NCBI GenBank assembly: GCA_023954475.1
Contig: JAMLHW010000002.1
Coordinates: 434,001-498,000, forward strand
DNA length: 64,000 nt
DNA from: Anaerolineae bacterium
GTDB lineage: Bacteria; Chloroflexota; Anaerolineae; Promineifilales; Promineifilaceae
Direction of reading: 5' to 3'
Of the stretch, positions 37,854-53,381 are shown piece after piece. The position numbers and the translations under genes are program-made. The notes under the pieces were generated by a model. It was not told the DNA's origin, made no database searches, and saw only the letters and a program-made list of their open reading frames with translations. How positions within the stretch are numbered: position 1 is the first letter of the stretch; every line of letters begins with the position of its first letter.

Positions 37854-40358
37854 ATGTTTAAGAGCTATATCGACCCGGACGAAAGGAAAGAAGCTAACCG
37901 CAAACTGCCCGGCCTGATGGTCGAAGGATTGTTGTTGGGAGGTACTGGCCTGGGCGTCTTGGCATTGATCTTTGAAATCGCTGCCGACGCTTTCAGTGTG
38001 GCCGCTTACCAGACACTGCTGGCTATACATGGCGCAGATGGTTATCATCAAATCGCCATAGTTGCGTTTATTGTTTTGTCGGTTCTCCTGTTTCTCGGCA
38101 TCGTACCGGCCTACAAAGCAGGCGCGTACTTGCGCCCCAACGCGGGCGGCAGCGGCCCACTCGTCGAAGCTATCGGTCCCCCGAAACTTCGCTGGCTTTC
38201 CTGGATTGGCACCAGTTTGTTCTTCATCGATGCAGTCCTGACTATTATCATCAGCTCGATTTCGGCGTCTGATGTCACAATGTTGATCTTGCCTGAATTA
38301 GCAGCCTATCGCATTCTGCTCGCAGAAGCGTTTGCCTTTTTCATTATGGCGGTCTTGGTTGCATTGGGACCAAAACGGGCTGTACCACTATTCCTCATCG
38401 GCGGCGGCGCTTTCACCATTTTTACGCTCGGCGCTTTATTGATCGTGGGTGTTGGGGCTGCGCTCAATCCGGAATGGATGTTCCTGACCAACGGCATTGT
38501 CACACGCCTTGAACTGACAGGAGTTGCTGAACACGTCGTCCGTGCACAGCAAGACTTCATGGTATTGGCACCCGTTGTCATCTTCCAACTGTTTTTCAGT
38601 TCGATGGCCAGCGCCATGTTGGGCTTTTCCGGATACGAAGTCATACCTGCGAGTGGTAAACATGCCGCTCGGCCGAAATGGAAAGTCATCAACACCGCAC
38701 TCACATTGGCAGCCATTTTTCTAATTGGCACCGGCGTCGTGCAATTGTACGCAGCTAGTCAATGGGATATTCCCGCTACAGAAGGCTATAGTACGCTGCT
38801 CATTGAGTACGAAATTGTTGCTGTGCAAACCTTCGGCAACGGCGTTGACGCAGACAACATAGTGGTTACGCAAACAGATCGTGACACAGCGGCCGAAATG
38901 TATGCGCAAATCCCTTCCGAAATCGCCAATGAAGTGTTGCTGGGTGAAGATGCTACCATTGCTGACGAACTGGCCGTTCTCTCGGAAGAAGAATATATCG
39001 AAACGGTTGCATATGATCTGGCAGTCGTGCGGGCATTGCGTGAAGCTACAGCCAATACATTAGGCTCAGCTTTTCTCATCGTTGCCGGTACGTTGTTAGC
39101 CATCATTTTGCTGTTGGCACAGGGAGGTGGCTATGTCGGCGGCGCAGCGGTCGCAGCCAATGCGGCCCGACTGGGGCGTTTACCCAGCTTTTTCTCTGAT
39201 GACCGGATTGGTATTGCAGTCATTTGGGCTGCTTCGGCCGTTTTGATTCCGATCATCCGCGAGGTTGTGGTGGTAGAAGCGTACTATGCATTCGGTTTTG
39301 TCAGCGCATTCGTCATTACGAGTACGACAGTTTACTTTGTGCGCGCCGATGCGCTGCGCGAGCGGGGCATTGAACCGGGTTCGGCCGAAGCCAAATCTCT
39401 CAGATTCGCCGGTCTGCGCGGCATGATGGCCAGTTATTTCATGTTGATTGTACTGATAACACAGAAGACAGATGCACTGCCGGCAATTATCGTCGGAGGC
39501 ACCTTACTCACTTTATTCCAGTTGTATTATGCGACCAGCTTCTTCCGCAAAGTCGAAGTCACACCGGCTGTTCGACCGCCGGGAACCGTCAAAGTAGCCT
39601 ACGACACGGGTGCCCAACGCGCACACGATGAAGCACGTCAGCGCGGCATTGCCGATGCCGTTAAGGATCTGATTCACGAAGGGGCTTTTGCAAAATTCAA
39701 TGTCGGGCCGGATCGCATTACGACACTCGTTTGCTATCTTTACAACCTAAGCCCCACTCTTTTTGAGCCGCATGAAGATGATCATGAACGGATCGCCGAA
39801 CCCAGCGAAGAGTTGCAATCCACGTATTTGGATGCGTATGGAAAGCGTAAACAAATACTCCGGCGTGTTGAAGATTACTCGCACTTCGGCATCTTCATGT
39901 TCATCAATAACTACCACATAAACTGGATAGATGAAGATCTTGGCCGTGGTGCAGAAACCGTGCAGCAGGCGATGCTGAACATCTTGTTCCCCATGACTGA
40001 TTCGGATGAGATTTGGCAGGAATTTCAGGCGTTCGAACCACAGTACCAGCCGGAGCCTATTTGGCAATTCAGCCGGCAGCGTTATGTCTGGGCGAAAGAC
40101 CAATGGCCGAATCTGAGCGACCGCATTACGACCATCTGGACGTTGCAAGATTTTGGCATGTTGCCCCGCGATATCGATGTCAGAACGGTGATTACTGTGG
40201 CTGACGGCAGGCAGCGGATGTCAGTGAAAATCTCGTCCAACCCTGATGTGTATGCTAAAGCCTTGAAAGAGGCAATGAATGAGGAAGATGTTGTGGTTGA
40301 TGCAGAGGAAACCGCTAGACCGGATGATGATGAAGAGACGACTGATTCGGCCGAATAG
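37854..40358 (+). CDS. Large APC-like permease with soluble insert and C-terminal domain
   Basis: 834 residues. About 12 membrane helices lie in 20-590. A hydrophilic, acidic insert of about 110 residues (290-405) separates helices 7 and 8, probably outside the membrane. The C-terminal 230 residues are soluble and end in an acidic tail. Local pieces (GGSGPLVEAIGPP, FGFVSAFVITS) fit the APC fold, but no substrate motif is recognised. The gene is divergent from the KimA-like permease, which may point to a shared stimulus such as osmotic or potassium stress; that is inference. Confidence 0.75.
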   Translation: MFKSYIDPDERKEANRKLPGLMVEGLLLGGTGLGVLALIFEIAADAFSVAAYQTLLAIHGADGYHQIAIVAFIVLSVLLFLGIVPAYKAGAYLRPNAGGSGPLVEAIGPPKLRWLSWIGTSLFFIDAVLTIIISSISASDVTMLILPELAAYRILLAEAFAFFIMAVLVALGPKRAVPLFLIGGGAFTIFTLGALLIVGVGAALNPEWMFLTNGIVTRLELTGVAEHVVRAQQDFMVLAPVVIFQLFFSSMASAMLGFSGYEVIPASGKHAARPKWKVINTALTLAAIFLIGTGVVQLYAASQWDIPATEGYSTLLIEYEIVAVQTFGNGVDADNIVVTQTDRDTAAEMYAQIPSEIANEVLLGEDATIADELAVLSEEEYIETVAYDLAVVRALREATANTLGSAFLIVAGTLLAIILLLAQGGGYVGGAAVAANAARLGRLPSFFSDDRIGIAVIWAASAVLIPIIREVVVVEAYYAFGFVSAFVITSTTVYFVRADALRERGIEPGSAEAKSLRFAGLRGMMASYFMLIVLITQKTDALPAIIVGGTLLTLFQLYYATSFFRKVEVTPAVRPPGTVKVAYDTGAQRAHDEARQRGIADAVKDLIHEGAFAKFNVGPDRITTLVCYLYNLSPTLFEPHEDDHERIAEPSEELQSTYLDAYGKRKQILRRVEDYSHFGIFMFINNYHINWIDEDLGRGAETVQQAMLNILFPMTDSDEIWQEFQAFEPQYQPEPIWQFSRQRYVWAKDQWPNLSDRITTIWTLQDFGMLPRDIDVRTVITVADGRQRMSVKISSNPDVYAKALKEAMNEEDVVVDAEETARPDDDEETTDSAE

Positions 40359-40442: not shown

Positions 40443-42074
40443 TCAGCGGCTCAACGCCACATTGATGGTCATGCTATCCGGATCATCCGTACTAAACTCG
40501 AGATAACCCGTTTCGTCCAGATAACCGTCTGCTAATACGACCGCTTCATAACGTACATCACGCGCCAATAATTCAGGTAAAAAGTAACCCCCGCGTGCAT
40601 CTGTTTCGGCAAAGGTGTAGATGGTGTCCAAATCCGGCGCATCGAGCCATGTACCGACATCAACACCTGGCTGAAGCACAATGACCAGTGCACCGGCGAT
40701 AGCTTTGCCGGTTTCAGCATCAGTTATCGTACCACTCATCTGAATAGTATCGGCCGAAACAACACCACCGACTTGAGTCTCTGCCTGTGCCACGACACGC
40801 AGTTCTTCACCCGCACCCAGCAATAGAACGTACTCACCGTCCGGCAACGACTTGCCACCATTTTCCAGCCAGAACGGGTAACAAGACCCGCTAGCATCAC
40901 CATCCCACTCAAACGTACCTTCAGCCACCGACTCGCCATCGATCAGCCAGGCATATCCCAAGGTTTCACCTTCAGTCAAACCAGCGTAGCTGAAGACAGC
41001 AGTCACCCGCGTCGTTCCCGACGGGAAAGTCGAGACCACGTTGACGGCACAGCCCTGATTATCGGCCGATTCGGACCAGCCTTCAAACTGAAACTGCTGT
41101 TGACCACTTGTCGTCGTCACACCGCCCAACGTCGGATACGGGCTGCCGTAGCCGCTGCCAGCCTCAACAGCGCGGATCAGCGCTTTGGCGAGGTTGACCG
41201 GGCGCAGCGCATTGATAAAACCACCAATGGGAATGCAGTTATCACGATCATCCAGAGATCCGTCGCCATTGGTATCTTGTACAACACGACAATCGGTAAT
41301 CTGACCATTTGCGCCGGATGATGCCCTCGTGGGCACACCGACGATGGAACCGGCATCACTGACAGCCAGACCACCGGAGTTGCCGCCGGCGATTGTCGCA
41401 TCTGTCTTGATCCAGGCGCGATTGCCAATCGGATCCTGGCTGGAAAAGCCGGCGATTGTGCCGCGTGTGAATGTAATGGTATCGCCACCAATGCCGGGGA
41501 AACCGAAGATATAGACATTATCGCCTAGATGCAGGTCGTCCGAATTGCCCATCGCCACGTAGGGCAATGCGAGATCAGTCGGCCGAATCGCGGATCCGTC
41601 CAGATTTTGATCGATCTGCAAAACTGCCAGATCGAGATAACCATCGACGGCTACAACTGAAGCGAAAAACGTCGGTACCGGCGGTTCATCCTCATTGGTC
41701 AGCAGCGCAATACCGAGGGCGTCCGGTTCATCTTCCGGCACACCGACCGTCTTGGGACTGGCAACGTGAGCGTTCGTCAGAATCAATCCGGTCGGTGAAA
41801 TCAATGTACCTGATCCTGCGCCAATGATGAAGTAACCGTCTTCAGTATCTTGCAGCATGACGATTTGCACTGTGCGCTTGGCCAGTTGCTGCCGCTGATC
41901 ACTGGTCAAGGTCGTTCCGGCCGATTGCGCCCAGGCGGTCGTCAGGGATAGTGCCCCATCGGCCGAAATGGCACTATCAGCATAAACCGGCACACTGGCT
42001 GTCCGCGATCCGACAAACCACAGCGCAATGAGTAACAGTAAACCAAAGGTAACGAGATATTTTATGCGTTGCAT
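40443..42074 (-). CDS. Secreted trypsin-like serine protease with carboxypeptidase-regulatory-like domain
   Basis: 543 residues. Signal peptide 1-33; chymotrypsin-fold domain about 60-310 with His in TNAHV, Asp in YLDLAVL and Ser in GGNSGG, so the triad is complete. There is no PDZ domain. A loop with DTNGDGSLDDRDN (about 265-280) looks like a calcium-binding dockerin-type turn. A middle beta domain (325-440) and a C-terminal carboxypeptidase-regulatory-like domain (about 450-540: SGTITDAETGKAIAGALV, DARGGYFLPELL) follow. It is coded three bases after the PrsW-like gene and is surely co-transcribed. Confidence 0.9.
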   Translation of the reverse strand: MQRIKYLVTFGLLLLIALWFVGSRTASVPVYADSAISADGALSLTTAWAQSAGTTLTSDQRQQLAKRTVQIVMLQDTEDGYFIIGAGSGTLISPTGLILTNAHVASPKTVGVPEDEPDALGIALLTNEDEPPVPTFFASVVAVDGYLDLAVLQIDQNLDGSAIRPTDLALPYVAMGNSDDLHLGDNVYIFGFPGIGGDTITFTRGTIAGFSSQDPIGNRAWIKTDATIAGGNSGGLAVSDAGSIVGVPTRASSGANGQITDCRVVQDTNGDGSLDDRDNCIPIGGFINALRPVNLAKALIRAVEAGSGYGSPYPTLGGVTTTSGQQQFQFEGWSESADNQGCAVNVVSTFPSGTTRVTAVFSYAGLTEGETLGYAWLIDGESVAEGTFEWDGDASGSCYPFWLENGGKSLPDGEYVLLLGAGEELRVVAQAETQVGGVVSADTIQMSGTITDAETGKAIAGALVIVLQPGVDVGTWLDAPDLDTIYTFAETDARGGYFLPELLARDVRYEAVVLADGYLDETGYLEFSTDDPDSMTINVALSR

Positions 42075-42077
42075 TAA

Positions 42078-43520
42078 TTACGCTCCCGGATCGGCCACGC
42101 GCAGCGTCGCGGCCATGCGTTCAAAAGTGCTCAGCGAGTCAGCAAACGACTCACTACTGTCCTCAAACGAAGCCACAAGCAATTGCCCATTTACAACCAT
42201 ATAGTAATCGACACCTTCAATGACGCTCGGTTTGGCATTCAGTGGCGCAGTGACATAAGCATAATGAACGCGATACACCGGTACGCCATCCATCTCAACC
42301 ATGCCCTGTTCCAACACACGAAAACTGTTCATGCCGCGAGCGCGATTCAAAACATCTACTGCTGCTGCACCGGATGGACTATCGGCAGCAGGCAAAGCCC
42401 GCACACTGACTCGTTGCTGAGGCCGACGAATATTATTGGCAGCCAATAGAACGTTATCGGCGCCGGGCAGTGCCAACCATGACGCGGGCACATCCAGCGT
42501 GATGCCGGACTGCGTTATCGGCCGAGTTCGGTCAAGCGCATTCGCGCCGAGCAACCAACCAGCGCCGAGAGCCAGCATCGTCACCAAAACAACAAGCAGC
42601 GTCGAACTGCGCGTTTGCCCCACTGTGCGTTCCTCGTCCTCCTCTACACCGTCGGCGGCCATGGCAAGGCGGACATCCCGTCGGATGAGCCAACTGAGAA
42701 CAAGTGCAGTACCAATGGCCAATGTCGCAGCCAAGGCCAGGCTCAACCACTGGTTGGCCGGAGTTGATGACGATGTCCCCCCGGTCAACTGTCCGCGCAA
42801 AACGAGGAACAAGCCGTTGAGTGCCGCAGCCACCACAAGTCCGCCGGTCATCCACCACAGCGGCCGCTTTTCGTGCTTTTCGCGCCCCAGAAAATAGCCG
42901 ACGATTCCGGCAAAACTGGCCAGAGCCAGTGTCGTCAGCACGATTTGGATTGCGGCTAGTGTCAGTGATGTAGCCCCATCGCCGGTGATAAAGCGCACGT
43001 TGAGTACGGTAGCGTAGCCCAGACCGACGGCTGTAGCATAGATGATACCGTCTGTCGGACCATCGAATTCGGCCGAATTAAACACCGAAAAACGGACGCT
43101 TGCATACACCAGAAATTGCTGGGCAAAGCCAATTACAAGAATTGCCGCCGCCACATAAGACCATGGCTGATTGGCATACATCCAGGCATTAACCTGAAAA
43201 ACCGAGTGCACTAACGGGATACCGACAGCCGCAGCCACCAAAGCACCGAGGACAAAAACCCCAAGGACCATACCACGTGGTTCCGGCTCAGCCGCATCGC
43301 GCCTGTAAAAAAACCAGAGCCACAACAGCGCCGGAATCAGCGCCATAACAATACCCGCTGCCGCCAGAGCCGTTGGACCAAATTGCGGTGTCAGAAATTG
43401 CTCCAATACATAGATCAGCACAACAAAGCCAATCAACAAGGCGATTGTCACAATGTCAGCCAGCCAGAGTGCGTTTGTATGGGCATCAAATCGGTTGGAA
43501 ACAGATGCTGTTGCATCCAT
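42078..43520 (-). CDS. PrsW-like membrane protein lacking the catalytic glutamates
   Basis: 480 residues: about 9 membrane helices up to 330, then an external 150-residue domain. FFYRRDAAEPEPRGMV and FDGPTDGIIYATAVGLGYA are PrsW signatures. Where active PrsW proteases carry the EE pair the sequence reads AQQ (Gln 134-135), and the EN pair is replaced by LN (173-174). The hydrolase is therefore predicted inactive. The start at 43520 has AGGAGG seven bases upstream; the longer frame begins with a TTG two codons earlier. It is paired with an active exported protease gene, which suggests a regulatory pseudo-enzyme. Confidence 0.82.
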   Translation of the reverse strand: MDATASVSNRFDAHTNALWLADIVTIALLIGFVVLIYVLEQFLTPQFGPTALAAAGIVMALIPALLWLWFFYRRDAAEPEPRGMVLGVFVLGALVAAAVGIPLVHSVFQVNAWMYANQPWSYVAAAILVIGFAQQFLVYASVRFSVFNSAEFDGPTDGIIYATAVGLGYATVLNVRFITGDGATSLTLAAIQIVLTTLALASFAGIVGYFLGREKHEKRPLWWMTGGLVVAAALNGLFLVLRGQLTGGTSSSTPANQWLSLALAATLAIGTALVLSWLIRRDVRLAMAADGVEEDEERTVGQTRSSTLLVVLVTMLALGAGWLLGANALDRTRPITQSGITLDVPASWLALPGADNVLLAANNIRRPQQRVSVRALPAADSPSGAAAVDVLNRARGMNSFRVLEQGMVEMDGVPVYRVHYAYVTAPLNAKPSVIEGVDYYMVVNGQLLVASFEDSSESFADSLSTFERMAATLRVADPGA

Positions 43521-43838: not shown

Positions 43839-46487
43839 ATGAACCAACAAATCGACAAGTACGAGGAACTGCGCCATGAGCTGGCAACCCTCCCGTTCAT
43901 CAACGATGCTCAGACAGAACGCTGGGTCAATTTGCAGCGCGTCATCGACGGCAGCCGCGATTATTTAATTCGCGCTGTACCCGAATCGCGCATCAATATC
44001 GACACAGCGCAAAAGATTCTGGAACAACGCACTTACACGCTCGTCTTCTTTGGCGGCACCGGCGTCGGCAAGAGCACACTGATCAACGCACTTCTCGGCC
44101 GAAACCTGCTACCGACCGGTGCTGTCACCGCTGTGACCGGTACCATCGTCTACATCGAACAAGCAGACGAAGATGAAGCCGAATCGTTGACGCTGGAATA
44201 CTGGAATCGCGGCGAATTTGCGCAACGCGTCCGTCGGCTGTGCCAACTGGCTGATATTGACGGCTTCGACATCACCAACGAAGGTGAACGCAACATTGCC
44301 CGCGACGCCATCAATGCCGCCATCACCAATGGCCGCGAACTCGCTAAAACAGAGCGCGACGAATATCTCGAAATCTTGCTCGACTGCATCGCAACCTATG
44401 AAAATCACCGCGAGTTGATGAAAGCCGACACGCCACCACCGATGGATTTCCGTCTCGATGACGAAAGCGCCCTGCTCCATTTGCGCGAGGACGGCTACAA
44501 AGGCAGCGACCAACGCCAGATTCGGCTGGTGCGCTCGGCTACATTCCGCATCCATCCGCCGGCCGACAAACCCAATTTGCTGATGAACGGCTTTTTGCGC
44601 ATCGTCGATGTGCCCGGTCTGGGCGCAGGCATGCGATTGCATGAAGAAATCACGCTCGAAGAGATGAAGAAAGAAGACGCGATGATCGTGCTCGTCACCG
44701 ACGCCGGTCGTCAACGTGTCGATGAAATGAAATCGCTCTCGGCTGTCAACTGGATCAAGGAAAACCGCCTTTACGGATTGCGCGGCAGCGACCTGGACGA
44801 CGCTGCGGCCAAGATTTTCGTCGCCGTCAACGGTGCCAATATTCGCCAGGCATTTGACCGTCTCAACAGTGGCTTGCCGGAAGCAGAGCGTGAGATCAAG
44901 GAAGTGACGCGCCATATCGCCCCTAACTATTGGGAAGCATATGCCGACCGCGGTGACAACCGACCCTACTTCATGATCATGGCGCCGTCAGCACTCTACG
45001 TGCAGGATCCGGAAAACGCCCCGCATGAATTTGCCAGCGAGACTGAACGCATCATGAAAGCGTTCAAAGATCAACTCGGCCCAATCAGCAATGATCCGCT
45101 TGATCCACAAACGGCCGAAAAACTGCTCGAACTGAGCGAAGTTCCGCTGCTGCGCGAACGCCTGATCGACTTCATCCGCAACGAACGCGTTAAAACTCAA
45201 CTGCGCGAAGCGTCGACCCGTGTCCGCACCGCGCTGGAAACGCTGCGTTTGTACTACGAAAAACAATTAGCCGGACGCGGCATCTATCCGCCGTTTGAGA
45301 TCAGTTGGGAATCATTGCAGGAGCGTCGTTATGAAGCCGTTCTCGTGCGTCAGCAAAAAGAATTGCCACGCTCTTATCACGCAGCACTGGTCGAACTGAG
45401 CCAGCGCTACAATGACGACCGCCGCTTCCGCACACTGCTCAATCCTTCTCTGAATGGCATCCGCGAGATGGTGGAAGGCACCGTAGAGCGCGAGATTGAA
45501 ACCCTGCTCGACAGCTATGGCACGGAGCATTGGGATGACCGCGACGTGACCTACGACAACCTGATCTGGGGTACGAGCGGCATCGAGTTACCAATTAAAC
45601 GCATCTTGTTCCAGGTTGAACTGGTGATGCAGGAAGCGGTTTCGCAATATATGCCTGCCCTGGCCGAAGCGATTGCCAACGAAATGGAGCGCACACTACA
45701 GGCGCATGAAATCAAGTCGCGCCTGCAACGCGCCGAGTATGAGCAAGCCTACACGTATTCACTGCCCAATGATCAGGGTGAAGTGTATGCACTGGATGGC
45801 GCTTATGACGCATTGACGGCTCGTGTGCGCAACAATTTCCGCCAGGTTTGCCGCCAGGCTGTAATGTATGAATTGGTTCGCCCGGAGCGTTCGGTGCACT
45901 TCAAGCTGGCTGAAGGCGAACGCGAACTGGCAATGGCAACCAATGAGCGCCTGCTCGATGTCGCGCTGGAAGGTGTCGATGCTGTGCGGCAAGATATGCC
46001 GATGGTGTCGAGTAATAATGTGGGTGGTTCGGCCGAATCTGATCCGGCCATCGAGGAAGACGAGTTTGCTATCCGCATTCTCGATGAACCGACCGGTGCC
46101 GGGTCCGACAGCGGCTTTGAAATCAGTCTACTCGACGGTGAAACCGATGACATGGGTGGCTACGATGACCTCGAAGCCAGCTATGCTGACAAACTGGACG
46201 ACATCCAGACCAAGACCAATCGCATTTTCTCGACCATCATCGACGATCTGTTCAGCGATGACGAATTGCTGCCGCGTTTACGTCGTCTCTTCTGGCTGGA
46301 AGCAACTCGCGCTGAGCGTGACTTCAACAATCACATTGTCAAGCCGATGTTGCGTCAGCATGACCGCCGTCTGCAGCGCGAAGAGTTGCGCGTGGCCATG
46401 GAACCTGATCTGGAGTCGATCTCCGATCTGGAACATCTGATGCGCACCTGGGAAGGATTGCACGAACTGGAAGCGCAAGTTTACTAG
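43839..46487 (+). CDS. Dynamin-like GTPase heading the ubiquitin-like cluster
   Basis: 882 residues. P-loop GGTGVGKST at 72-80, switch threonines in TAVTGT (97-102), and G3 DVPGLG at 257-262; the base-recognition motif is divergent, with VNGAN near 330-334 as candidate. About 150 residues are inserted between switch I and G3. The rest (430-720 and 780-882) is long alpha-helix, as in dynamin stalks, broken by an acidic, probably disordered segment at about 715-785. No membrane helix is obvious. Bacterial dynamin-like proteins shape or repair membranes or resist phage; which applies here is unknown. The ATG at 43839 has GAGGA at good distance. Confidence 0.82.
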   Translation: MNQQIDKYEELRHELATLPFINDAQTERWVNLQRVIDGSRDYLIRAVPESRINIDTAQKILEQRTYTLVFFGGTGVGKSTLINALLGRNLLPTGAVTAVTGTIVYIEQADEDEAESLTLEYWNRGEFAQRVRRLCQLADIDGFDITNEGERNIARDAINAAITNGRELAKTERDEYLEILLDCIATYENHRELMKADTPPPMDFRLDDESALLHLREDGYKGSDQRQIRLVRSATFRIHPPADKPNLLMNGFLRIVDVPGLGAGMRLHEEITLEEMKKEDAMIVLVTDAGRQRVDEMKSLSAVNWIKENRLYGLRGSDLDDAAAKIFVAVNGANIRQAFDRLNSGLPEAEREIKEVTRHIAPNYWEAYADRGDNRPYFMIMAPSALYVQDPENAPHEFASETERIMKAFKDQLGPISNDPLDPQTAEKLLELSEVPLLRERLIDFIRNERVKTQLREASTRVRTALETLRLYYEKQLAGRGIYPPFEISWESLQERRYEAVLVRQQKELPRSYHAALVELSQRYNDDRRFRTLLNPSLNGIREMVEGTVEREIETLLDSYGTEHWDDRDVTYDNLIWGTSGIELPIKRILFQVELVMQEAVSQYMPALAEAIANEMERTLQAHEIKSRLQRAEYEQAYTYSLPNDQGEVYALDGAYDALTARVRNNFRQVCRQAVMYELVRPERSVHFKLAEGERELAMATNERLLDVALEGVDAVRQDMPMVSSNNVGGSAESDPAIEEDEFAIRILDEPTGAGSDSGFEISLLDGETDDMGGYDDLEASYADKLDDIQTKTNRIFSTIIDDLFSDDELLPRLRRLFWLEATRAERDFNNHIVKPMLRQHDRRLQREELRVAMEPDLESISDLEHLMRTWEGLHELEAQVY

Positions 46488-46492
46488 AATCT

Positions 46493-46524
46493 AAAAGCTG
46501 TTGGCTGTCAGCTAACAGCTTTTT
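46493..46524 (+). terminator. Terminator-like hairpin between first and second cluster genes
   Basis: AAAAGCTGTT (46493-46502) pairs with AACAGCTTTT (46514-46523) and a T-run follows. It lies 21 bases before the next start codon, so it may attenuate transcription or stabilise a processed end instead of ending the operon. Confidence 0.55.
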
Positions 46525-46544
46525 GTCGGAAAAGGAGTCACGCT

Positions 46545-47732
46545 ATGGAAGATGCAGCAGACAGATTACTGCGCTCCATCAAAGACGAACAATTGACCGC
46601 GTTTGCGAAACAGTTGGCGGCGTTTATCGCGCAGGAAGCAGGCAATATGGCGCTGAGCGAATCGCGTGCTAAAGCGTTGTTGTTGACAACTGAGTCACTG
46701 GACACGCCGACGCTGAATGATTTCGGCCGAATTGTCTCCAATCCCGCCTACGTCCGTGTCGCGCTGTATGACTTGCTCGACAGTTCTGAACTGGTCGCCG
46801 GTAGCCGCATTAGCGCGATACTTCCGTCAACCGGCTCGGACGCTGCCGTGGATTGGCTGTCACTGATCATCGGCGCCTACGCCCTGAAAGCAGATTATCC
46901 GCTGGACAATCTCGATCCAACCTCCCCCCCCAGCCAGTTCAGCCCGGCGGGGCAAGTCATCAGCCAAACAGCCAGTTTCGTGCGCCGTCAAGTACAGCGC
47001 AGCGCTACTGATCGCGACAAGTTGGCAAGGAAGTTGGCATATTCGGCCGATATGGCACAATCTCTGGACGACATGGCAGTGGCCCCTGAATCAGTTGCGC
47101 CCGTTCCGCCCCATTTCCGCACGCCGATTCCAGTACGCTATCCGGAAGTAAGCAGCCAGACTATCATCATCGACGAAAGCGACGCAGCACGCCGGATACC
47201 GGGCTCTGTCGAACGCGGTGAACCGATCCGCATCACGGAAGATGACCTTGAGCCCCCACAAAGCGCCGTTACCATCATCACCGGCGAATCGCGTCCGGTG
47301 CCAACTGCGCCGCCGTCATCTAACCGTTCGCTTTCTGATGTGCGCATCCCTGACTCGGTGTCAAACGCCGCACGAACAGCGACCCAGGCTGCCAGTGAAA
47401 TGGCATCATCTGTGCGCAAAACCATTTCGGCCGAACCGCTAAAAATGACCAAACTGCGCGTTGTCGTGCAGCGCTACCCTGATGGCCCCGGCATTCCCGG
47501 CGTACAAGTCAAGGTGCAAACAAAAGGCGTGAAAAAATTTGTGGCCGCGACGACCAATGCAGACGGCGTTTTTCTCTGTTCATTGCCCGTGCGGGCGCGC
47601 GCCGGCATGACGTACTATGTCGATGTCATCTGGCCGAATGAACTGGGTGGCAAACGCGAGCGCAAAACGATTACTCTCAACGCCGACCGAGAGCAATTCA
47701 CGTTGCCTTATTACCATTCCGTACTTATTTGA
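46545..47732 (+). CDS. Cluster protein with helical N-terminus and C-terminal beta-sandwich domain
   Basis: 395 residues, no family recognised for the N-terminal 185 residues, which are helical. Residues 190-305 are Pro/Ser/Thr-rich and probably disordered. The last 85 residues (KLRVVVQRYPDGPGIPGVQVK, TNADGVFLCSLP) resemble carboxypeptidase-regulatory-like or Big-type beta-sandwich domains, normally found outside cells, although no signal peptide exists here. AAGGAG precedes the ATG. It is fixed between the GTPase and the E1 gene, so it may be an adaptor or substrate of the pathway; this is inference. Confidence 0.7.
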   Translation: MEDAADRLLRSIKDEQLTAFAKQLAAFIAQEAGNMALSESRAKALLLTTESLDTPTLNDFGRIVSNPAYVRVALYDLLDSSELVAGSRISAILPSTGSDAAVDWLSLIIGAYALKADYPLDNLDPTSPPSQFSPAGQVISQTASFVRRQVQRSATDRDKLARKLAYSADMAQSLDDMAVAPESVAPVPPHFRTPIPVRYPEVSSQTIIIDESDAARRIPGSVERGEPIRITEDDLEPPQSAVTIITGESRPVPTAPPSSNRSLSDVRIPDSVSNAARTATQAASEMASSVRKTISAEPLKMTKLRVVVQRYPDGPGIPGVQVKVQTKGVKKFVAATTNADGVFLCSLPVRARAGMTYYVDVIWPNELGGKRERKTITLNADREQFTLPYYHSVLI

Positions 47733-47767
47733 TCACTGACCACTAATCACTGTCCACTGAACACTGA
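47733..47767. repeat. Five degenerate 7-bp tandem repeats filling the spacer before the E1 gene
   Basis: Units are TCACTGA, CCACTAA, TCACTGT, CCACTGA, ACACTGA. The array starts on the base after the upstream stop codon and ends five bases before the ATG at 47773, so there is no Shine-Dalgarno sequence. A matching array in the same sense relative to the gene lies before the Lgt-like gene (56737-56778). Confidence 0.8.
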
Positions 47768-47772
47768 CAACC

Positions 47773-48948
47773 ATGACAGAAGAATTACTCGTAATCACTG
47801 ATCCCGATACTGACCGTTACCACACGTTTAGTTACATAAGCTGGTGGAAACAGGATATCGTTCGCAATGCGACCGCGCTTGTGATCGGCGCCGGCGCGCT
47901 CGGCAACGAAGTGTTGAAAAACCTGGCATTGATGGGAATCGGCCGAATCATTATCGCCGATTTCGACACCATCGAAGACAGCAACCTGAGCCGTTCCGTC
48001 CTCTTCCGCGAAAAAGATCGTGGACGCCGCAAAGTCGACGTCGCCGCGGAAGCCGTCAAGGCACTCAACCCCGACGTTGAAGTAATGACCTGGCACGGCG
48101 ACATCAATTTCGAACTGGGTCTCGGCGTCTTTCGCCACGTCGACGTCATTATCGGCTGCCTCGACAATCGCGAAGCACGATTAAGCATCGACCGCTTCAG
48201 CCAATCCGTCAATCGCCCGTGGGTCGATGGCGCCATTCAGGAACTGATGGGCATCGTCCGCGTTTTCTGGCCCGGACGCGGTGCCAACTACGAAAGCACC
48301 CTGACAGACCATGACTTTCAAATGATCGGTCTGCGCTACTCTTGTCCCCTGCTGGCAAGGGAAAACGTCCTGCAAGGCAAAGTGCCGACCACACCGACCA
48401 GCGGCTCGATTGTTGCCGCTTTTCAAACGCAGGAAGCGCTCAAAATTATTCACGGCATGGAAGTCGAACCCGGCGTGGGCATGATGATCAATGGTCTGAC
48501 AAACGACATTTACAAAACTGAGTATCCGGTCGTCGCTGATCGGTTACACGCGCCACTCGAGCCAATTGTGCCACTTGCCAATAATTGCAGCGATACGACG
48601 ACGCTTGCCGATCTGCTGACGATTGCACGCGGCATGATCGGGCCGGAAGCAGCGCTGGAATTTTCCGGCGAAATCGTAATCAGCATGACCGATCCGGAGA
48701 GCGGTGACGAACAATTCTATTTCAAGCGCATGGCTCGCTTGACCGAGCGCGAATATCTGTCACCGACATCCGGCCTGCGTCGTGATATGCACCTGACACA
48801 TCGTGTAACCGGTGAGGAAGATTTTCTGAATCGCACGCTGGCCGAGTTCGATCAGCCGCCACTGGCGATTATCCGCGCACGCAACGGTAAGGAACGCATT
48901 TACCTTGAACTGACCGGCGACAAAGACAGATTTTTCCAGTTTGTATAG
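47773..48948 (+). CDS. E1-like/ThiF-family adenylating enzyme
   Basis: 391 residues. Rossmann loop GAGALGNE at 39-46, IADFDTIEDSNLSRSVLFRE with the Mg-binding Asp and Arg/Asn (62-80), Lys 87, and GCLDNREARLSID at 128-140, all as in ThiF/MoeB/E1 proteins. Cys 191 (RYSCPL) precedes the crossover segment TTPTSGSIVAAFQTQEALKII and is the best candidate for the thioester cysteine. The CxxC zinc pairs of MoeB/ThiF are absent. The C-terminal 130 residues form a separate domain. It should adenylate the C-terminal Gly of the Ubl encoded next and hand it to the E2. Confidence 0.9.
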   Translation: MTEELLVITDPDTDRYHTFSYISWWKQDIVRNATALVIGAGALGNEVLKNLALMGIGRIIIADFDTIEDSNLSRSVLFREKDRGRRKVDVAAEAVKALNPDVEVMTWHGDINFELGLGVFRHVDVIIGCLDNREARLSIDRFSQSVNRPWVDGAIQELMGIVRVFWPGRGANYESTLTDHDFQMIGLRYSCPLLARENVLQGKVPTTPTSGSIVAAFQTQEALKIIHGMEVEPGVGMMINGLTNDIYKTEYPVVADRLHAPLEPIVPLANNCSDTTTLADLLTIARGMIGPEAALEFSGEIVISMTDPESGDEQFYFKRMARLTEREYLSPTSGLRRDMHLTHRVTGEEDFLNRTLAEFDQPPLAIIRARNGKERIYLELTGDKDRFFQFV

Positions 48949-49121
48949 GTAGCTCAGACGGTTTTCCGATTGGACTATCGGTTTACCGACAACCAGTACA
49001 ACCACAGACCAACAACTTTGTAAGATAGCTGTTAGAGTAGCTCATTTGAGCAACTTTTAGGAATAAAGTGACGTAAAGTAAGCGTCAATTGCAATATGCA
49101 AGTAAGCAATGGAGAAAGACA

Positions 49122-49388
49122 ATGGCAAGTGTGAAAGTTATCATTTATGATCCAACCGGTTCCAAGAAAACCCCCGTCGAGCTACCGGGAGATGTGCCGA
49201 TGCGCCGTCTGATTCCCGCTCTGGTGACCAAGATGGGTTTGCCAACACAGCAAGGTGCCAATCCGATCACTTATCGTCTGGATCATCGTGATTCCGGCAA
49301 ACGTCTCTCAGAAGATGAGACGTTGAGCCAGGCTGGTGTGAAAGAAGATGATATCCTTAGCCTGTTCCCTGAAGTGACAGCGGGCTAG
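49122..49388 (+). CDS. Ubiquitin-like protein (YukD/EsaB-type), C-terminal Ala-Gly
   Basis: 88 residues. The beta-grasp pattern is clear: strand VKVIIYD, turn, PVELPGDVPMRRLIPALV helix, YRLDHRDSGKRLSEDETLSQAGV and final strand DDILSLFPEV. This is the YukD/EsaB version of the ubiquitin fold. The chain ends in Val-Thr-Ala-Gly, so a terminal glycine is exposed without processing, as required for E1 activation. The ATG at 49122 has GGAG ten bases upstream; an in-frame ATG at 49095 lacks one. E1 and E2 genes flank it directly. No type VII secretion genes are in the window. Confidence 0.88.
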   Translation: MASVKVIIYDPTGSKKTPVELPGDVPMRRLIPALVTKMGLPTQQGANPITYRLDHRDSGKRLSEDETLSQAGVKEDDILSLFPEVTAG

Positions 49389-49420
49389 CAGTTCAACAAC
49401 CAACGGCTAAACATGTTGAG

Positions 49421-49463
49421 GCTATGGAAACCAGGTTTCTTGGCGAAATTCGGTTTCTATAGC
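49421..49463 (+). promoter_or_regulatory. Long RNA stem in the leader of the E2 gene
   Basis: GCTATGGAAACC (49421-49432) pairs with GGTTTCTATAGC (49452-49463), eleven Watson-Crick pairs and one G-U, around a 19-base loop. The loop carries a second GGTTTC copy that could compete for pairing. There is no T-run, so it is not a normal terminator. Confidence 0.55.
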
Positions 49464-49545
49464 TGCCACAACCATGTTGTTGCCAGCAGTTCTCTAACTG
49501 CGAACTGGTCTGATAGTATCATTCTGTACCTATTTCGAGGTAACT

Positions 49546-50082
49546 ATGTCATTCGATATACGTGAAGCCCGATTGCGCAACGACTATGCTCGCGTGCGCG
49601 ATTTGGTCAATCGCAGTGACCTGATCTATATCATCGACAGCGACGGTGACCCACCGGAGCGGTATCGCATACGGTATACATGCCGTAGCGTTGAAAAATT
49701 GATGCCGAACGGGACACCGAAGATACGTGAAGTACACGATGTCGCCATTTACTTGCACGCTGAATATCCGTTAAAGCAGCCTCAACTAAAATGGTTGACA
49801 CCAATCTTCCACCCCAACATTCACATTACTGGTGCAGTGTGTATTGGCGCATGGTGGCCTGCCAAGACGCTTGACGAATTGCTGTTGACTTTGGGCGAAA
49901 TGATTCAATACAAGAATCTGGACCCGAAGGATCCGATGAATTCGAAGGCAGCGGCGTGGTCCATCCGCAACCGGCACCTTTTCCCAATCGACAATCGCGA
50001 TCTGAAAGGCCAATCACTACAAGACATGATCGTACTCGGTGAACCCGAAGCGGATGATCTGGGTATCAACATTCTGGGATAA
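49546..50082 (+). CDS. E2 ubiquitin-conjugating-enzyme homologue (UBC fold)
   Basis: 178 residues. FHPNIHITGAVCIGAWWPAKTL contains the E2 hallmark HPN (89-91) and the catalytic Cys 99, written here as FHPNIHITG then AVCIGAWW. The distance from the HPN Asn to the Cys is eight residues, as in eukaryotic E2s. The upstream strands (HDVAIYLHAEYPLKQPQLKWLTPI) and the downstream LDPKDPMNSKAAAW also follow the canonical fold. It should carry the Ubl as a thioester. The start has GAGGT upstream. Two bases separate its stop from the next start. Confidence 0.93.
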   Translation: MSFDIREARLRNDYARVRDLVNRSDLIYIIDSDGDPPERYRIRYTCRSVEKLMPNGTPKIREVHDVAIYLHAEYPLKQPQLKWLTPIFHPNIHITGAVCIGAWWPAKTLDELLLTLGEMIQYKNLDPKDPMNSKAAAWSIRNRHLFPIDNRDLKGQSLQDMIVLGEPEADDLGINILG

Positions 50083-50084
50083 CG

Positions 50085-50912
50085 ATGGAAAGCGAACACG
50101 ACTTCATGCAGGACATCGATAATCAGGGACTTGGAAGTTCAACGGTTTCGTTTACAGAGCCGCCAGCAAGTAATCATCGGCTACCGCAACATATGCCGCC
50201 GACGCGGGATGAATGTGTTTTGCACGGCAGTTTACCGCTCGACGAGCAGCCGCGTGTCGTCTATTCGCAACAAGCATTGCAGCAGATCGAGGCGCACTGC
50301 ACCAGCAATTTGCGTGTCGAAGTTGGCGGCGCCTTGCTCGGTGTAGCGTATCAGCACAATGATCTGTTGTTTGTGGAAGTGCAGGCAGCGATCCCGGCCG
50401 TTTCGGCCGATCATGGGCCGAGTCATTTTACATTCACGGCCGACGTTTGGGCGCAATTGCACCGGGACCGGGAAGCCTACCCTGAACTGGAGTTTGTGGG
50501 CTGGTTCCACACACATCCCGACCTGGGCGTGTTCTTTTCCTCTGATGACATCGTCGTACACAATGCGGCGTTCCGCCAACCATGGCATGTCGCCCTTGTC
50601 GTCGATCCTGTGCGCAATGAAGCGTGTACATTTGGCTGGAATAGGGGTGAAATCGAGCCGCTACTCGGCTTCTATGAGTTTTTGGCTGATGATCCAGACG
50701 AACTCGACATGCCGCGCAGCCAGATTTCGTGGCGCATTGTGACAGATAATGTATTTGGCGGTCATTATCCCGATGAATATGTGCAATACGCCGTTCGGCC
50801 GAATGAACTCAACCTACCACCAATCAGTCCCTGGATTGGCGCCATTCTCGGCGGACTGGGTTTGGCCGTCAGCATTGTGACGCTGATTCTCGTAATTATC
50901 AAACTATACTGA
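50085..50912 (+). CDS. JAMM/MPN+ metalloprotease with C-terminal membrane anchor
   Basis: 275 residues. All zinc-site residues of the JAMM motif are present: Glu 79 (EVGGALLG), His 142 and His 144 (HTHPDLGVFF), Ser 152 and Asp 155. Such enzymes cut isopeptide or peptide bonds after a ubiquitin-like C-terminus. The last 25 residues are a single hydrophobic helix (about 249-272) ending in Lys-Leu-Tyr, which gives a tail-anchored protein with the protease in the cytoplasm. The first 45 residues are probably disordered. Confidence 0.92.
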   Translation: MESEHDFMQDIDNQGLGSSTVSFTEPPASNHRLPQHMPPTRDECVLHGSLPLDEQPRVVYSQQALQQIEAHCTSNLRVEVGGALLGVAYQHNDLLFVEVQAAIPAVSADHGPSHFTFTADVWAQLHRDREAYPELEFVGWFHTHPDLGVFFSSDDIVVHNAAFRQPWHVALVVDPVRNEACTFGWNRGEIEPLLGFYEFLADDPDELDMPRSQISWRIVTDNVFGGHYPDEYVQYAVRPNELNLPPISPWIGAILGGLGLAVSIVTLILVIIKLY

Positions 50913-50962
50913 CAGTCGCCCACACTGCCGCAACTATTGCACCGCAGTGACATAATCAACTC

Positions 50963-52075
50963 ATGACAGTAGATTCAATTACGACGCCTGAGGCACCTTA
51001 TGTGGTTGCTCTCCGCTTGACACCTCCGGAGATGCAAGGTCGGCTAACCGTTACAATCACGCTTCAAACTGCCGACCAGGTTGGCAGCGGCGTCCATGCA
51101 AAACCGTTGCGTGATTGCACACTGGCCGAATTACAACAATACGCCGACGCGCTGGAACAGTCATTTTGGGAAGCGCACGAAAACAGCACGCTGCAAGCAC
51201 TTCTGGATGACGAATCAATTGCGGTCGATATTGTGCTTGACGACGGAGAACCACAAGACACAGCATTGACCGAAGCGTTGCTGCTGGCACGCGTGATTAT
51301 CAGCGAAGATGACGACAGTGACGACAGTGAGCAACCTACAGCCGAGATGGTTGAAGCGCAGCATGATCCGGTGACCGATGAGAGTGTGGCAGACGTAGCC
51401 ATTGAACCGGATAGCAATGAGGTATCATCGGCCGAAGAAAGTTCTACGCCAACAGTGCTGCCTGAGCCGATTGTAACGATTGTCGAATCGGCCGAAGCAG
51501 CACCATCTGAAACGGCAAAACCAGACAAGCCACAGACCAAAGCGTATTTCGGCCGAATAGCCGGTGGCGTACGCCCCAACGACATCGCACAAAACGACGC
51601 GGTAGACATCCTGCTCGAGGAAAAACCGCTGCGCGCGATGCAGACACACGCCGTTTCCAGTATGCGCCGCGAAGTTGCCGGTGTCATGTTTGGCCCGCAG
51701 CCGGAAAAGCAACCCAATGGCCGCTACGTTGTGCGCGTTATCGACTCCGTCATTGCCCAGCACACACGCATGAGCGGCGCCAGTGTGACCTACACACCTG
51801 AGAGCTGGCGCTACGTCAATGACCAACTGAACACCATGTATCCGGACGGTGATGTTGTCATAGTCGGTTGGTATCATACCCATCCCGGCTTCGGCATATT
51901 TTTATCCGGTATGGATTTATTCATTCACGAGAATTTTTTCACGCAATCCTGGCACATTGCCTATGTACTCGATCCAGTCGCACGACGCAGTGGCTTCTTC
52001 TGCTGGGATCGATCCCAAAAACGCGTCAAAGAGTACGATTTACCCTGGCCGGAGTGGGCCAAACATTCCTGGTAA
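50963..52075 (+). CDS. Second JAMM/MPN+ metalloprotease with N-terminal extension
   Basis: 370 residues. The C-terminal 170 carry the full JAMM set: Glu 237 (REVAGVMFG), His 305 and His 307 (HTHPGFGIFL), Ser 315 and Asp 318. The N-terminal 110 residues form a small alpha/beta domain of unknown type, joined by a very acidic linker (112-185) with repeated Ser-Ala-Glu from the TCGGCCGA palindrome. No membrane helix. Two different JAMM enzymes suggest separate jobs, for example release of conjugates at the membrane and in the cytoplasm. Confidence 0.91.
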   Translation: MTVDSITTPEAPYVVALRLTPPEMQGRLTVTITLQTADQVGSGVHAKPLRDCTLAELQQYADALEQSFWEAHENSTLQALLDDESIAVDIVLDDGEPQDTALTEALLLARVIISEDDDSDDSEQPTAEMVEAQHDPVTDESVADVAIEPDSNEVSSAEESSTPTVLPEPIVTIVESAEAAPSETAKPDKPQTKAYFGRIAGGVRPNDIAQNDAVDILLEEKPLRAMQTHAVSSMRREVAGVMFGPQPEKQPNGRYVVRVIDSVIAQHTRMSGASVTYTPESWRYVNDQLNTMYPDGDVVIVGWYHTHPGFGIFLSGMDLFIHENFFTQSWHIAYVLDPVARRSGFFCWDRSQKRVKEYDLPWPEWAKHSW

Positions 52076-52181
52076 CCGCCAGGCAACCAGGTGCCGACCA
52101 CCGCACTCATTGAGCACAACCCTAACCTTTAGCTCAAGGGCCTGTGCTTTCACTTTACGAAGCACCTGATTTTACGTTACA

Positions 52182-52715
52182 ATGCGTACCGACCAACTCA
52201 ACAATCAAACCACCGACCGGGCAAATCTCAACGGAGAAAACCCGAATCGTTCACGACTCGCAGAGTCCACGTCGGCAAGGCAGACGATGGCAGAACAAGA
52301 GAACGCTCTCATTCGGATAACAGCTGATGACATCAAAGAAGCGAATCAGCTCAGTTTGCATTGTCCGATCTGCGCCGGGCCAGTTGAAAACAACGTCGAC
52401 GAGCCTGAACTGCAACCGGTGCTGTGTGGTAAATGTGGCACGTTGTATCATCGCGCTTGCTGGGAAGGAAACGGTGGCACGTGTGCTGTCCTGGGATGTG
52501 ACCATACCGAAGCACGGCGCTACGGCATCAATCTCGGCCCGATTATGACAATCAAGCCTGATGAGGTTCCATCTGATGCCCAGGTAGACAGAATGCAGCG
52601 GCAGCAGCTGAAATCGGCCGAAAAAGCACCGGGTCGCGTTGCCCCTAAACGAGAACCATCACAAGGTTTCTGGGCTAGATTGTATCAACGGATTCTAGAA
52701 GCGTTCCGCAGCTAG
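52182..52715 (+). CDS. RING-like zinc-finger protein
   Basis: 177 residues from this ATG; an ATG at 52287 (142 residues) is an equally good start. The finger has Cys 61, 64, 82, 85, His 90, Cys 93, 101 and 106 with spacing CxxC-x17-CxxC-x4-H-x2-C-x7-C-x4-C, a two-zinc RING-type treble clef. The C-terminal 20 residues (FWARLYQRILEAFR) form an amphipathic helix that could touch membrane. In this context it is a candidate E3-like factor that recruits the E2. Confidence 0.85.
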   Translation: MRTDQLNNQTTDRANLNGENPNRSRLAESTSARQTMAEQENALIRITADDIKEANQLSLHCPICAGPVENNVDEPELQPVLCGKCGTLYHRACWEGNGGTCAVLGCDHTEARRYGINLGPIMTIKPDEVPSDAQVDRMQRQQLKSAEKAPGRVAPKREPSQGFWARLYQRILEAFRS

Positions 52716-52727
52716 TCGGACTCTCCA

Positions 52728-53381
52728 ATGCCACGTGCTATCCCGATCACCAAGGAGTCGCCATTCTTTGGCGAAATTTGTGCGCTGTGCAAGGAACCGT
52801 TTGCTCCTGGTGATGACATCGTCGTCTGTAATGAATGCGGCACACGGCATCATTCGTTCTGCTGGCAGGAAGTAGGCAACCATTGCACGGCGTACGGCTG
52901 TACGGGACGCGGAGAGATTATTCGGCCGACATACGACGAGCAACCAGCATCCGGGTCGCGTATGGAACGGGCTGCCGCTGCTGCCACCTCTGCCCGGGTT
53001 ATCGACACGCCGCTCACACCAAATGGAAACGCACTTGATACGCCTCAGCCTGAAACGCGGCCCGCTCGCCCACGCCGACGAACCGCTGCGCGTTCCCGTA
53101 CGCGCAGTGCTGCCCCGTCACAACAGACGGTGGTCACCAATTCGGCCGAAACACAGCCGACAGCCTGGCATACGCGCTGGGCGCAAAGCTGCCTGATCAT
53201 CGCCATTGCCATCGCAATTCTGGTATTTGCTTTCGGTTGCTTCGGTTTGTGGGCGATTGCGGATTACGTGATGATTGAGGTGCTCGGCTACGATTATCGG
53301 CCGATCAACCAAAACCTGTTGCCGCAACTCAACACCATGCGCACGACACTTGAAATCGTGGTGCTGCCGTTTTTCCTATGA
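52728..53381 (+). CDS. RING-like zinc-finger protein with membrane helix
   Basis: 217 residues. Ligands Cys 18, 21, 34, 37, His 42, Cys 45, 53 and 58 show the same CxxC-x4-H-x2-C-x7-C-x4-C second half as the preceding protein, so the two are paralogues. A basic, Pro/Arg/Thr-rich linker (70-148) leads to one membrane helix at about 153-179 and a short tail. The finger would face the cytoplasm. Its TGA stop lies directly beside the stop of the convergent metG gene. Confidence 0.86.
   Translation: MPRAIPITKESPFFGEICALCKEPFAPGDDIVVCNECGTRHHSFCWQEVGNHCTAYGCTGRGEIIRPTYDEQPASGSRMERAAAAATSARVIDTPLTPNGNALDTPQPETRPARPRRRTAARSRTRSAAPSQQTVVTNSAETQPTAWHTRWAQSCLIIAIAIAILVFAFGCFGLWAIADYVMIEVLGYDYRPINQNLLPQLNTMRTTLEIVVLPFFL

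Follow-up and report, generated by a model that had tools for sequence, protein, structure and literature searches.

To our knowledge, the bacterial systems studied so far in which E1 and E2 enzymes handle a ubiquitin-like modifier (Ubl) act mostly in defence. Mitofusins are eukaryotic dynamin-superfamily proteins tied to ubiquitin, and RNF112 holds a RING and a GTPase in one protein. Here we analyse a 64,000-nucleotide stretch of contig JAMLHW010000002.1 from an Anaerolineae bacterium (hereafter the window), in which nine genes on the plus strand at 43839-53381 encode a predicted Ubl conjugation set together with a dynamin-like GTPase. We put the probability at roughly 0.5 that this cluster carries out reversible Ubl tagging at the cytoplasmic membrane, as a core and vertically inherited pathway that would act with or on the GTPase.

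Operons of E1, E2, Ubl and JAB genes, some of them with RING genes, are already known (PMC1779556, PMC7159879). The operons of Iyer, Burroughs and Aravind (2006, PMC1779556) hold the same enzyme classes in one operon. The main text of that paper does not contain the word "dynamin", its YukD passages concern ESAT-6-type export, and its sole "RING finger" passage concerns eukaryotic N-recognins. The tri-ligase Ubl systems of the FtsH-ternary conflict systems of Kaur et al. (2020, PMC7159879) combine JAB, E1, RING-type E3, Ubl and E2, as here. Their other genes, however, are vWA-MoxR, FtsH, EAD1 and an effector resembling caspases, and the word "dynamin" does not occur there. The window cluster differs from them in its dynamin-like GTPase, its transmembrane JAMM and RING proteins and its near-universal presence in the family of the source organism (labelled f1; G-numbers denote genomes and L-numbers loci).

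Bil (BilABCD, PMC11354881) shares E1, E2 and JAB enzymes with the window, but its Ubl is double and ISG15-like, and its E1 combines an inactive with an active domain. The window cluster has instead a single Ubl (one domain in 88 aa), one ThiF stretch in the 391 aa of its E1, RING proteins and a GTPase, with a weak BilD match of 28.6 bits. E1, E2 and JAB enzymes are also in common with Ubl-like conjugation in CBASS (PMC10097602); among the nine proteins, Pfam and PADLOC returned no cyclic-nucleotide synthase, and matches to E1-E2/JAB models were partial. For the GTPase, the closest predicted fold is that of SynDLP (PMC10104851), at about 14% sequence identity, and the word "ubiquitin" is absent from the main text of the SynDLP paper. 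RNF112 (PMC12012479) joins RING/ubiquitin function to a dynamin-superfamily GTPase, whereas the window cluster has them as separate genes. Judged by titles and the starts of abstracts, no account of dynamin coupled to a bacterial Ubl system was found; the likeliest earlier source is Burroughs et al. 2011, 2012.

Predicted conjugation enzymes and GTPase of the cluster

A first-pass annotation made from the letters of the window had proposed nine same-strand genes with the enzyme classes of a conjugation pathway. All nine open reading frames (ORFs) were confirmed in place, eight of them with Pfam matches over the cut-off, in an assembly of 5.12 Mb and 26 contigs that is 97.9% complete. By their coordinates, gaps within the cluster do not exceed 173 bases. 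The 5' neighbour is a divergent PrsW-type protease and the 3' neighbour a convergent methionyl-tRNA synthetase (MetG), both on the minus strand, so the nine genes can be a single transcription unit. Scans for promoters and terminators returned roughly double the counts of shuffled sequence (13 vs 6.6 and 21 vs 12.2, respectively), and no site clearly marks the cluster.

Conservation was assessed in f1 alignments of homologues that passed an E-value limit of 1e-20 and reached 85% or more of the length of the window protein, with identical copies dropped and starts set at the nearest Met; the counts for GTPase, E1, E2, both JAMM peptidases and both RING proteins include the window copy. The E1-like adenylating enzyme (391 aa, 47773..48948, +) matches ThiF at 158.9 bits, over the Pfam cut-off, and carries GAGALGNE at 39. 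The RYSCP motif is present in 39/40 E1s, and we infer that Cys191, a candidate by motif, is the catalytic cysteine. Its best solved relatives are UBA7 and UBA1, with UBA7 reached at 9e-27 from the single sequence.

The E2 (178 aa, 49546..50082, +) matches UQ_con at 53.6 bits, over the cut-off, and yeast E2-24 kDa at 3.1e-11 from the single sequence. Its HPN (89-91) and Cys99 are conserved in 46/46 sequences. Asn91 and Cys99 lie 8 residues apart, as are HPN and Cys in UbcH5, while yeast E2-24 kDa, the closest solved E2 in the alignment, has one residue more. The "eukaryotic spacing" initially ascribed to this protein is therefore that of some eukaryotic E2s (UbcH5-type) but not of yeast E2-24 kDa.

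The Ubl (88 aa, 49122..49388, +) matches YukD at 47.7 bits, over the cut-off. Its C-terminus, VTAG, is kept in all 40 complete f1 Ubls (the L108 copy is truncated at a contig end), with TAG invariant and Ala-Gly in place of Gly-Gly, which bears out the Ala-Gly ending first noted. Four of the 40 extend 1-5 residues past TAG. Outside the family, 17/18 stand-alone Ubl ORFs end in TAG and one in TAG plus three residues, and TAG lies at the junction in 16/17 flagged Ubl-E2 fusion ORFs; the remaining one is a fragment at a contig start whose Ubl match is doubtful. C-terminal extensions on five Ubl homologues imply precursor processing and, with TAG at the fusion junctions, suggest that the Ala-Gly C-terminus is exposed through proteolysis. 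Taken by domain and motif, the predicted E2 fold with HPN and Cys, the E1 adenylation domain and the Ubl with its C-terminal Gly are what a conjugation pathway would contain.

Two other roles for the Ubl have to be weighed here. The protein belongs to Pfam YukD, and YukD is reported to be unconjugated (PMC1779556), so the Ubl might instead be a structural, non-covalent part of a secretion machine. We hold this to be highly improbable given the full E1/E2/JAB set, the invariant and processed-looking Ubl C-terminus and the result for type VII secretion, namely 0 WXG100 matches in the source genome with a positive B. subtilis control. Alternatively, the Ubl could mark proteins for a proteasome or AAA protease, as might be expected from a related Ubl system for which coupling to Pup has been reported in certain Thermofonsia and planctomycetes (PMC7159879). 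Such degradative tagging is very unlikely in our view: the assembly gave no Pup ligase or proteasome-family match in searches that, among 14 control genomes, were positive in 1 and 10, respectively, and that left FtsH, Clp and Lon outside their scope.

Mean pairwise identity in f1 is 0.889 for the Ubl, 0.756 for E1, 0.744 for the GTPase and 0.741 for E2, and 0.525, 0.523, 0.496 and 0.455 for RING1, JAB2, the GTPase partner and JAB1. Fourfold-site identity is 0.37-0.45 across the seven genes tested (Ubl, 0.372). An amino-acid identity of 0.889 despite saturated fourfold sites indicates that the Ubl is held by selection and does not reflect recent transfer.

The GTPase (882 aa, 43839..46487, +) matches Dynamin_N at 48.1 bits (Pfam cut-off 27), with a P-loop, GGTGVGKST, at 72 and DVPG at 257; P-loop and DxPG are kept in 32/32 sequences. 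A profile search matched SynDLP chain 9em9 at 4.1e-11. The best match of its AlphaFold model (mean pLDDT 75.9, pTM 0.53) is SynDLP 7zw6 (Foldseek E 2.5e-18; Z 28.6, 683 residues aligned, rmsd 10.6), followed by Fzo1, mitofusin, bacterial dynamin pairs and BDLP. The GTPase domain, together with a helical bundle and stalk as judged from an end-to-end SynDLP-like predicted fold, would place the protein in the dynamin superfamily. Homologues at 64-70% identity comprise twelve named records from Chloroflexi, Anaerolineae, Anaerolinea or Ardenticatenaceae metagenome-assembled genomes. In some genera a 93-98 aa protein lies directly 3' of the GTPase (L073:10357-10635, L102:6645-6923, L083:8078-8371); the single member scanned had no Pfam match over the cut-off.

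The second gene, encoding the GTPase partner (395 aa, 46545..47732, +), has no Pfam match over the cut-off. In its model (mean pLDDT 83.0, pTM 0.49) a helical N-terminus (1-165) is followed by a low-confidence middle, the linker, and a C-terminal transthyretin/CnaB-like sandwich at about 299-395. Among the matches listed, the C-terminal part alone drew any and the N-terminal part none. The protein had been described as a beta-sandwich, a description that applies to its last third and not to its first 165 residues, which are predicted to be helical.

Both JAMM peptidases appear to have intact zinc sites, as first proposed. JAB1 (275 aa, 50085..50912, +) matches Prok-JAB at 37.8 bits, with HTH at 142, and JAB2 (370 aa, 50963..52075, +) matches JAB at 42.8 bits, with HTH at 305; the H-x-H-x7-S-x2-D signature is found in 43/43 JAB1 and 33/33 JAB2 sequences. 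RING1 (177 aa, 52182..52715, +) and RING2 (217 aa, 52728..53381, +) match Prok-RING_1 over the cut-off, at 32.0 and 51.9 bits. Their Cys/His patterns are kept in 21/21 RING1 rows, so few because the window RING1 is longer than most, and in 25/25 RING2 rows, which are untrimmed ORFs including the window and one duplicated locus (L040/L050). Both proteins thus have the zinc-binding pattern of a RING E3, as read from their sequences.

Linkage and distribution across genomes

Of the order's 56 genomes, 48 yielded the GTPase, all of them in f1 (48/52), and 46 the partner, again all in f1; the E2 was likewise found in 48, comprising 47/52 f1 genomes and 1/4 of f86. Some of these calls rest on contig-end fragments. 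E2 was found in 48 of the 396 genomes of the class. In a sample of 350 genomes from the phylum, 12 had the E2 and 7 the GTPase. Two of these 7 are f1 genomes with the close form, and five carry a distant form in family f29 (22-25% identity in alignment, 25-30% over matched stretches). One f29 genome (G220) has the GTPase plus E1 and E2 on another contig. The f29 GTPases (L032-L036) bear an N-terminal zinc-ribbon-like CPQC...CNIC, with Zn_ribbon_3 just under the cut-off in the one scanned, and at L033 the gene lies 5' of a GH31 glycosidase.

Both GTPase and E2 occur in 43 f1 genomes, on the same contig in 26. In 22 of these 26, from 13 genera, the GTPase lies 5' of E2 on the same strand at a distance of 3.1-4.4 kb, although in a few of the 22 it is a contig-end fragment. 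In the other four the distance is 11.7-19.4 kb, and one of them has both genes on the same strand. The coupling proposed in the first-pass annotation therefore withstands the refuting condition named with it, GTPase and conjugation genes apart in most relatives: within f1, GTPase and E2 are close to co-universal and often adjacent. In G368, G378 and G385 the two parts are apparently joined across a contig break through a split partner gene, whereas in G356 GTPase and E2 are truly apart on two long contigs. No GTPase was found within 4.9 kb 5' of the partner in G388, and no partner 3' of the GTPase in the fetched stretch of G371. Genes next to the cluster are not kept: the PrsW gene was found at 2/35 and MetG at 0/35 loci of relatives, and, of 20 neighbours other than the nine genes (after 30 kb), 16 were unmatched in relatives, where genes past the fetched flanks could not match. 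E1 lies with the GTPase-partner pair in G391 and with the partner in G390, with Ubl-E2-JAB-RING elsewhere in both, and stays beside the Ubl half in genus g202. Its staying with either half suggests that E1 bridges the two.

Near-universal presence and kept order look like those of a vertically inherited core pathway and not of a patchy defence island. An anti-phage role of the Bil or CBASS-ancillary type, with the GTPase as membrane effector, has in its favour that PADLOC E1-E2, BilD and JAB models match in part, as do LeoA and LeoBC models for the GTPase, and that dynamin-like proteins with roles in defence are generally known. Of ten neighbours, three (a NUDIX protein and two trypsin-like ones) also match PADLOC RT-Protease_XI, PDC-M35A, PDC-S07 and weaker models, which we read as generic protease and NUDIX matches. 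This role is nonetheless quite unlikely, since the cluster is near-universal in f1 and slowly evolving, its surroundings include MetG, Lgt and an amino-acid permease, and relatives of its E2 are nearly absent from mobile elements. They occur in 1/72,556 plasmid records and 0/50,697 phage records. We rejected a plasmid or phage origin on these counts, the one plasmid record (Crinalium) having no GTPase annotated nearby. On that plasmid (L109, NC_019754), a ThiF gene, two small ORFs, E2 and a Mov34/MPN/PAD-1 gene lie beside a conjugative transfer gene. Within the window, the PrsW-type protease is paired with a trypsin-like protease (40446-43520, divergent, 5' of the GTPase), with homologues at L059 and L080 in two relatives, and an 834-aa protein without a Pfam match at E 0.1 (37854-40358) lies beside the amino-acid permease.

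All 22 E2 loci outside the family were fetched, five of them on short contigs or at contig ends. FHA and vWA genes are present at 17 of the 22, in a sister cassette whose order includes E1, a transmembrane RING-like protein, Ubl-E2 (in most), Ubl, JAB, FHA and vWA. These loci (L022-L029, L096, L128, L130-L136) belong to other Chloroflexota, mostly Anaerolineae. At L022, a Pfam scan found GntR fused to E1, a transmembrane protein with Prok-RING_1 just under the cut-off, and Ubl fused to E2. The sister cassette resembles the window cluster in its E2 (about 50% identical for most), its Ubl (41-45%) and the same TAG end, but FHA and vWA replace the GTPase and partner and the Ubl is fused to E2. 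The two arrangements together point to one conserved conjugation core with different partner modules.

A genus represented by G396-398 (77-82% complete) has E2, while GTPase and partner were not found. Its Ubls (L093, L094, L095) are altered at 5/60 sites that are invariant in other f1 Ubls, at residues 11, 26 and 53 in all three and at 80 and 82 in two. The 15 other groups compared alter at most 2/57 invariant Ubl sites. Changes in E1 (1/137, one sequence) and JAB1 (0/36) are not raised. The Ubl changes would fit the loss of a contact on the GTPase side.

Several observations weigh against an action of the tagging pathway with or on the GTPase. E2 was found without the GTPase in G390 as well as in G396, G397 and G398, and the GTPase without E2 in G362, G367, G370, G373 and G394. 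All but a few of the genomes that lack one of the two are incomplete assemblies; the G390 contig breaks off where the partner begins, and G362 has E1 and a portion of the Ubl at a contig end. Counting same-contig pairs favours seeing genes close together. In the genus without GTPase, JAB2 is also raised (13/82) and E2 slightly so (2/68), and this is one lineage. Confidence in the GTPase model is low in places. On a tree of 32 GTPases (19 labelled adjacent, 8 separate and 5 unlabelled because the neighbourhood was unresolved), adjacency labels cluster weakly (29 and 17 of 500 shuffles as low), although under midpoint rooting adjacent copies fall on either side of the first fork, including the group that split off first.

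Five switches between the adjacent and the separate state are required on the same tree. Those switches, the E2 without GTPase in G396-398, the f29 GTPases with no E1, E2 or Ubl within the fetched stretches, and the lack of a GTPase homologue in the stretches around the 22 E2 loci outside the family, several of which lie on short contigs, also weigh against such action and would be expected if two housekeeping modules, the GTPase-partner pair and Ubl conjugation, shared one operon for co-expression without acting on each other. We find this explanation doubtful. The order is held across 13 genera as next-door genes change, the four separated same-contig pairs are still less than 20 kb apart, E1 is found staying with either half, and Ubl constraint is altered where the GTPase was not found, albeit in one lineage. 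The proposed coupling of GTPase and Ubl is thus upheld by adjacency in 13 genera and limited by the unpaired genomes, the five tree changes and the GTPase-free cores of other families, which makes the link strong yet not obligatory.

Proposed tagging pathway at the membrane

Hydrophobic segments (Kyte-Doolittle, 19 residues, mean at least 1.6) were found in 42/43 JAB1 and 25/25 RING2 rows, and in no row of GTPase, partner, E1, Ubl, E2, JAB2 (0/33) or RING1. With the SynDLP-like predicted fold of the GTPase, these segments agree with the membrane-bound deconjugase and RING factors of the first-pass annotation. In many relatives JAB1 continues for about 130 residues beyond the segment, with a single weak, sub-threshold Ig-like match (E 0.017), while the window copy stops just past it.

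From family membership, active-site motifs, hydrophobic segments, co-conservation and gene order, we infer the reactions, topology, substrate and direction of the GTPase link that follow. We hypothesize that the pathway operates at the inner face of the cytoplasmic membrane. The JAMM peptidases would trim the Ubl to ...Thr-Ala-Gly where it is extended. E1 would adenylate the Ubl and load it on a cysteine, from which it would pass to Cys99 of E2. RING1 and the membrane-anchored RING2 may then bring the charged E2 to membrane-bound substrates, and the transmembrane JAB1 would take the Ubl off again. The GTPase and its partner could be what is tagged, could read the tag, or could be a membrane-remodelling machine recruited by it. 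A more specific version is possible but tentative, in which the cluster is a bacterial counterpart of ubiquitin-controlled membrane dynamics and reversible tagging by the transmembrane RING and JAMM proteins controls assembly or recruitment of the GTPase, as a core function of one Chloroflexota family.

A short motif is shared by proteins of the two halves. The window copies are IRITEDDL in the partner linker (228-235) and IRITADDI near the N-terminus of RING1 (44-51). The pattern [IL]x[IL][TSN]xxD[IL], written after viewing the RING1, partner and CAP-domain sequences so that its enrichment is post hoc, matches 21/21 RING1, 27/35 partner (outside the linker in L098) and 16/20 CAP ORFs vs 10/410 non-operon proteins of the same loci. 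It is a possible docking site for a shared binding partner. JAB2 was rejected as a carrier; 26/33 sequences matched, but the match was its own JAMM site in all but one extra case.

The CAP-domain (PF00188) gene, by which the cluster is often enlarged in relatives, was found in the genomes of 18 of them, ahead of E1 or behind the partner, at 44-54 bits in the three members scanned, and none was found in the 64-kb window. It sits between partner and E1 in all 16 genomes in which both neighbours are visible. Among the 20 CAP ORFs are two pairs of duplicates, and some starts are wrong. By eye, no signal peptide is evident in the copies at L084:5708-6388, L108:8625-9263 and in 16 further genomes; the N-terminus of several copies carries two or three [IL]x[IL]TxxD[IL]-like motifs. 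Family f102 has a weak E2 relative close to a CAP-domain-like ORF (L138:505-1305 and 2043-2873), perhaps as an independent link.

If the cluster is a core, slowly evolving Ubl system with RING proteins and a GTPase, it would offer a simple model for ubiquitin-type tagging tied to membranes, for which the GTPase-free sister cassette is a natural comparison. Should the tag also control the GTPase, bacteria would have had, or separately evolved, a ubiquitin-type tag paired with dynamin-type machinery. These results suggest that protein tagging and membrane machinery can be coupled outside eukaryotes too.

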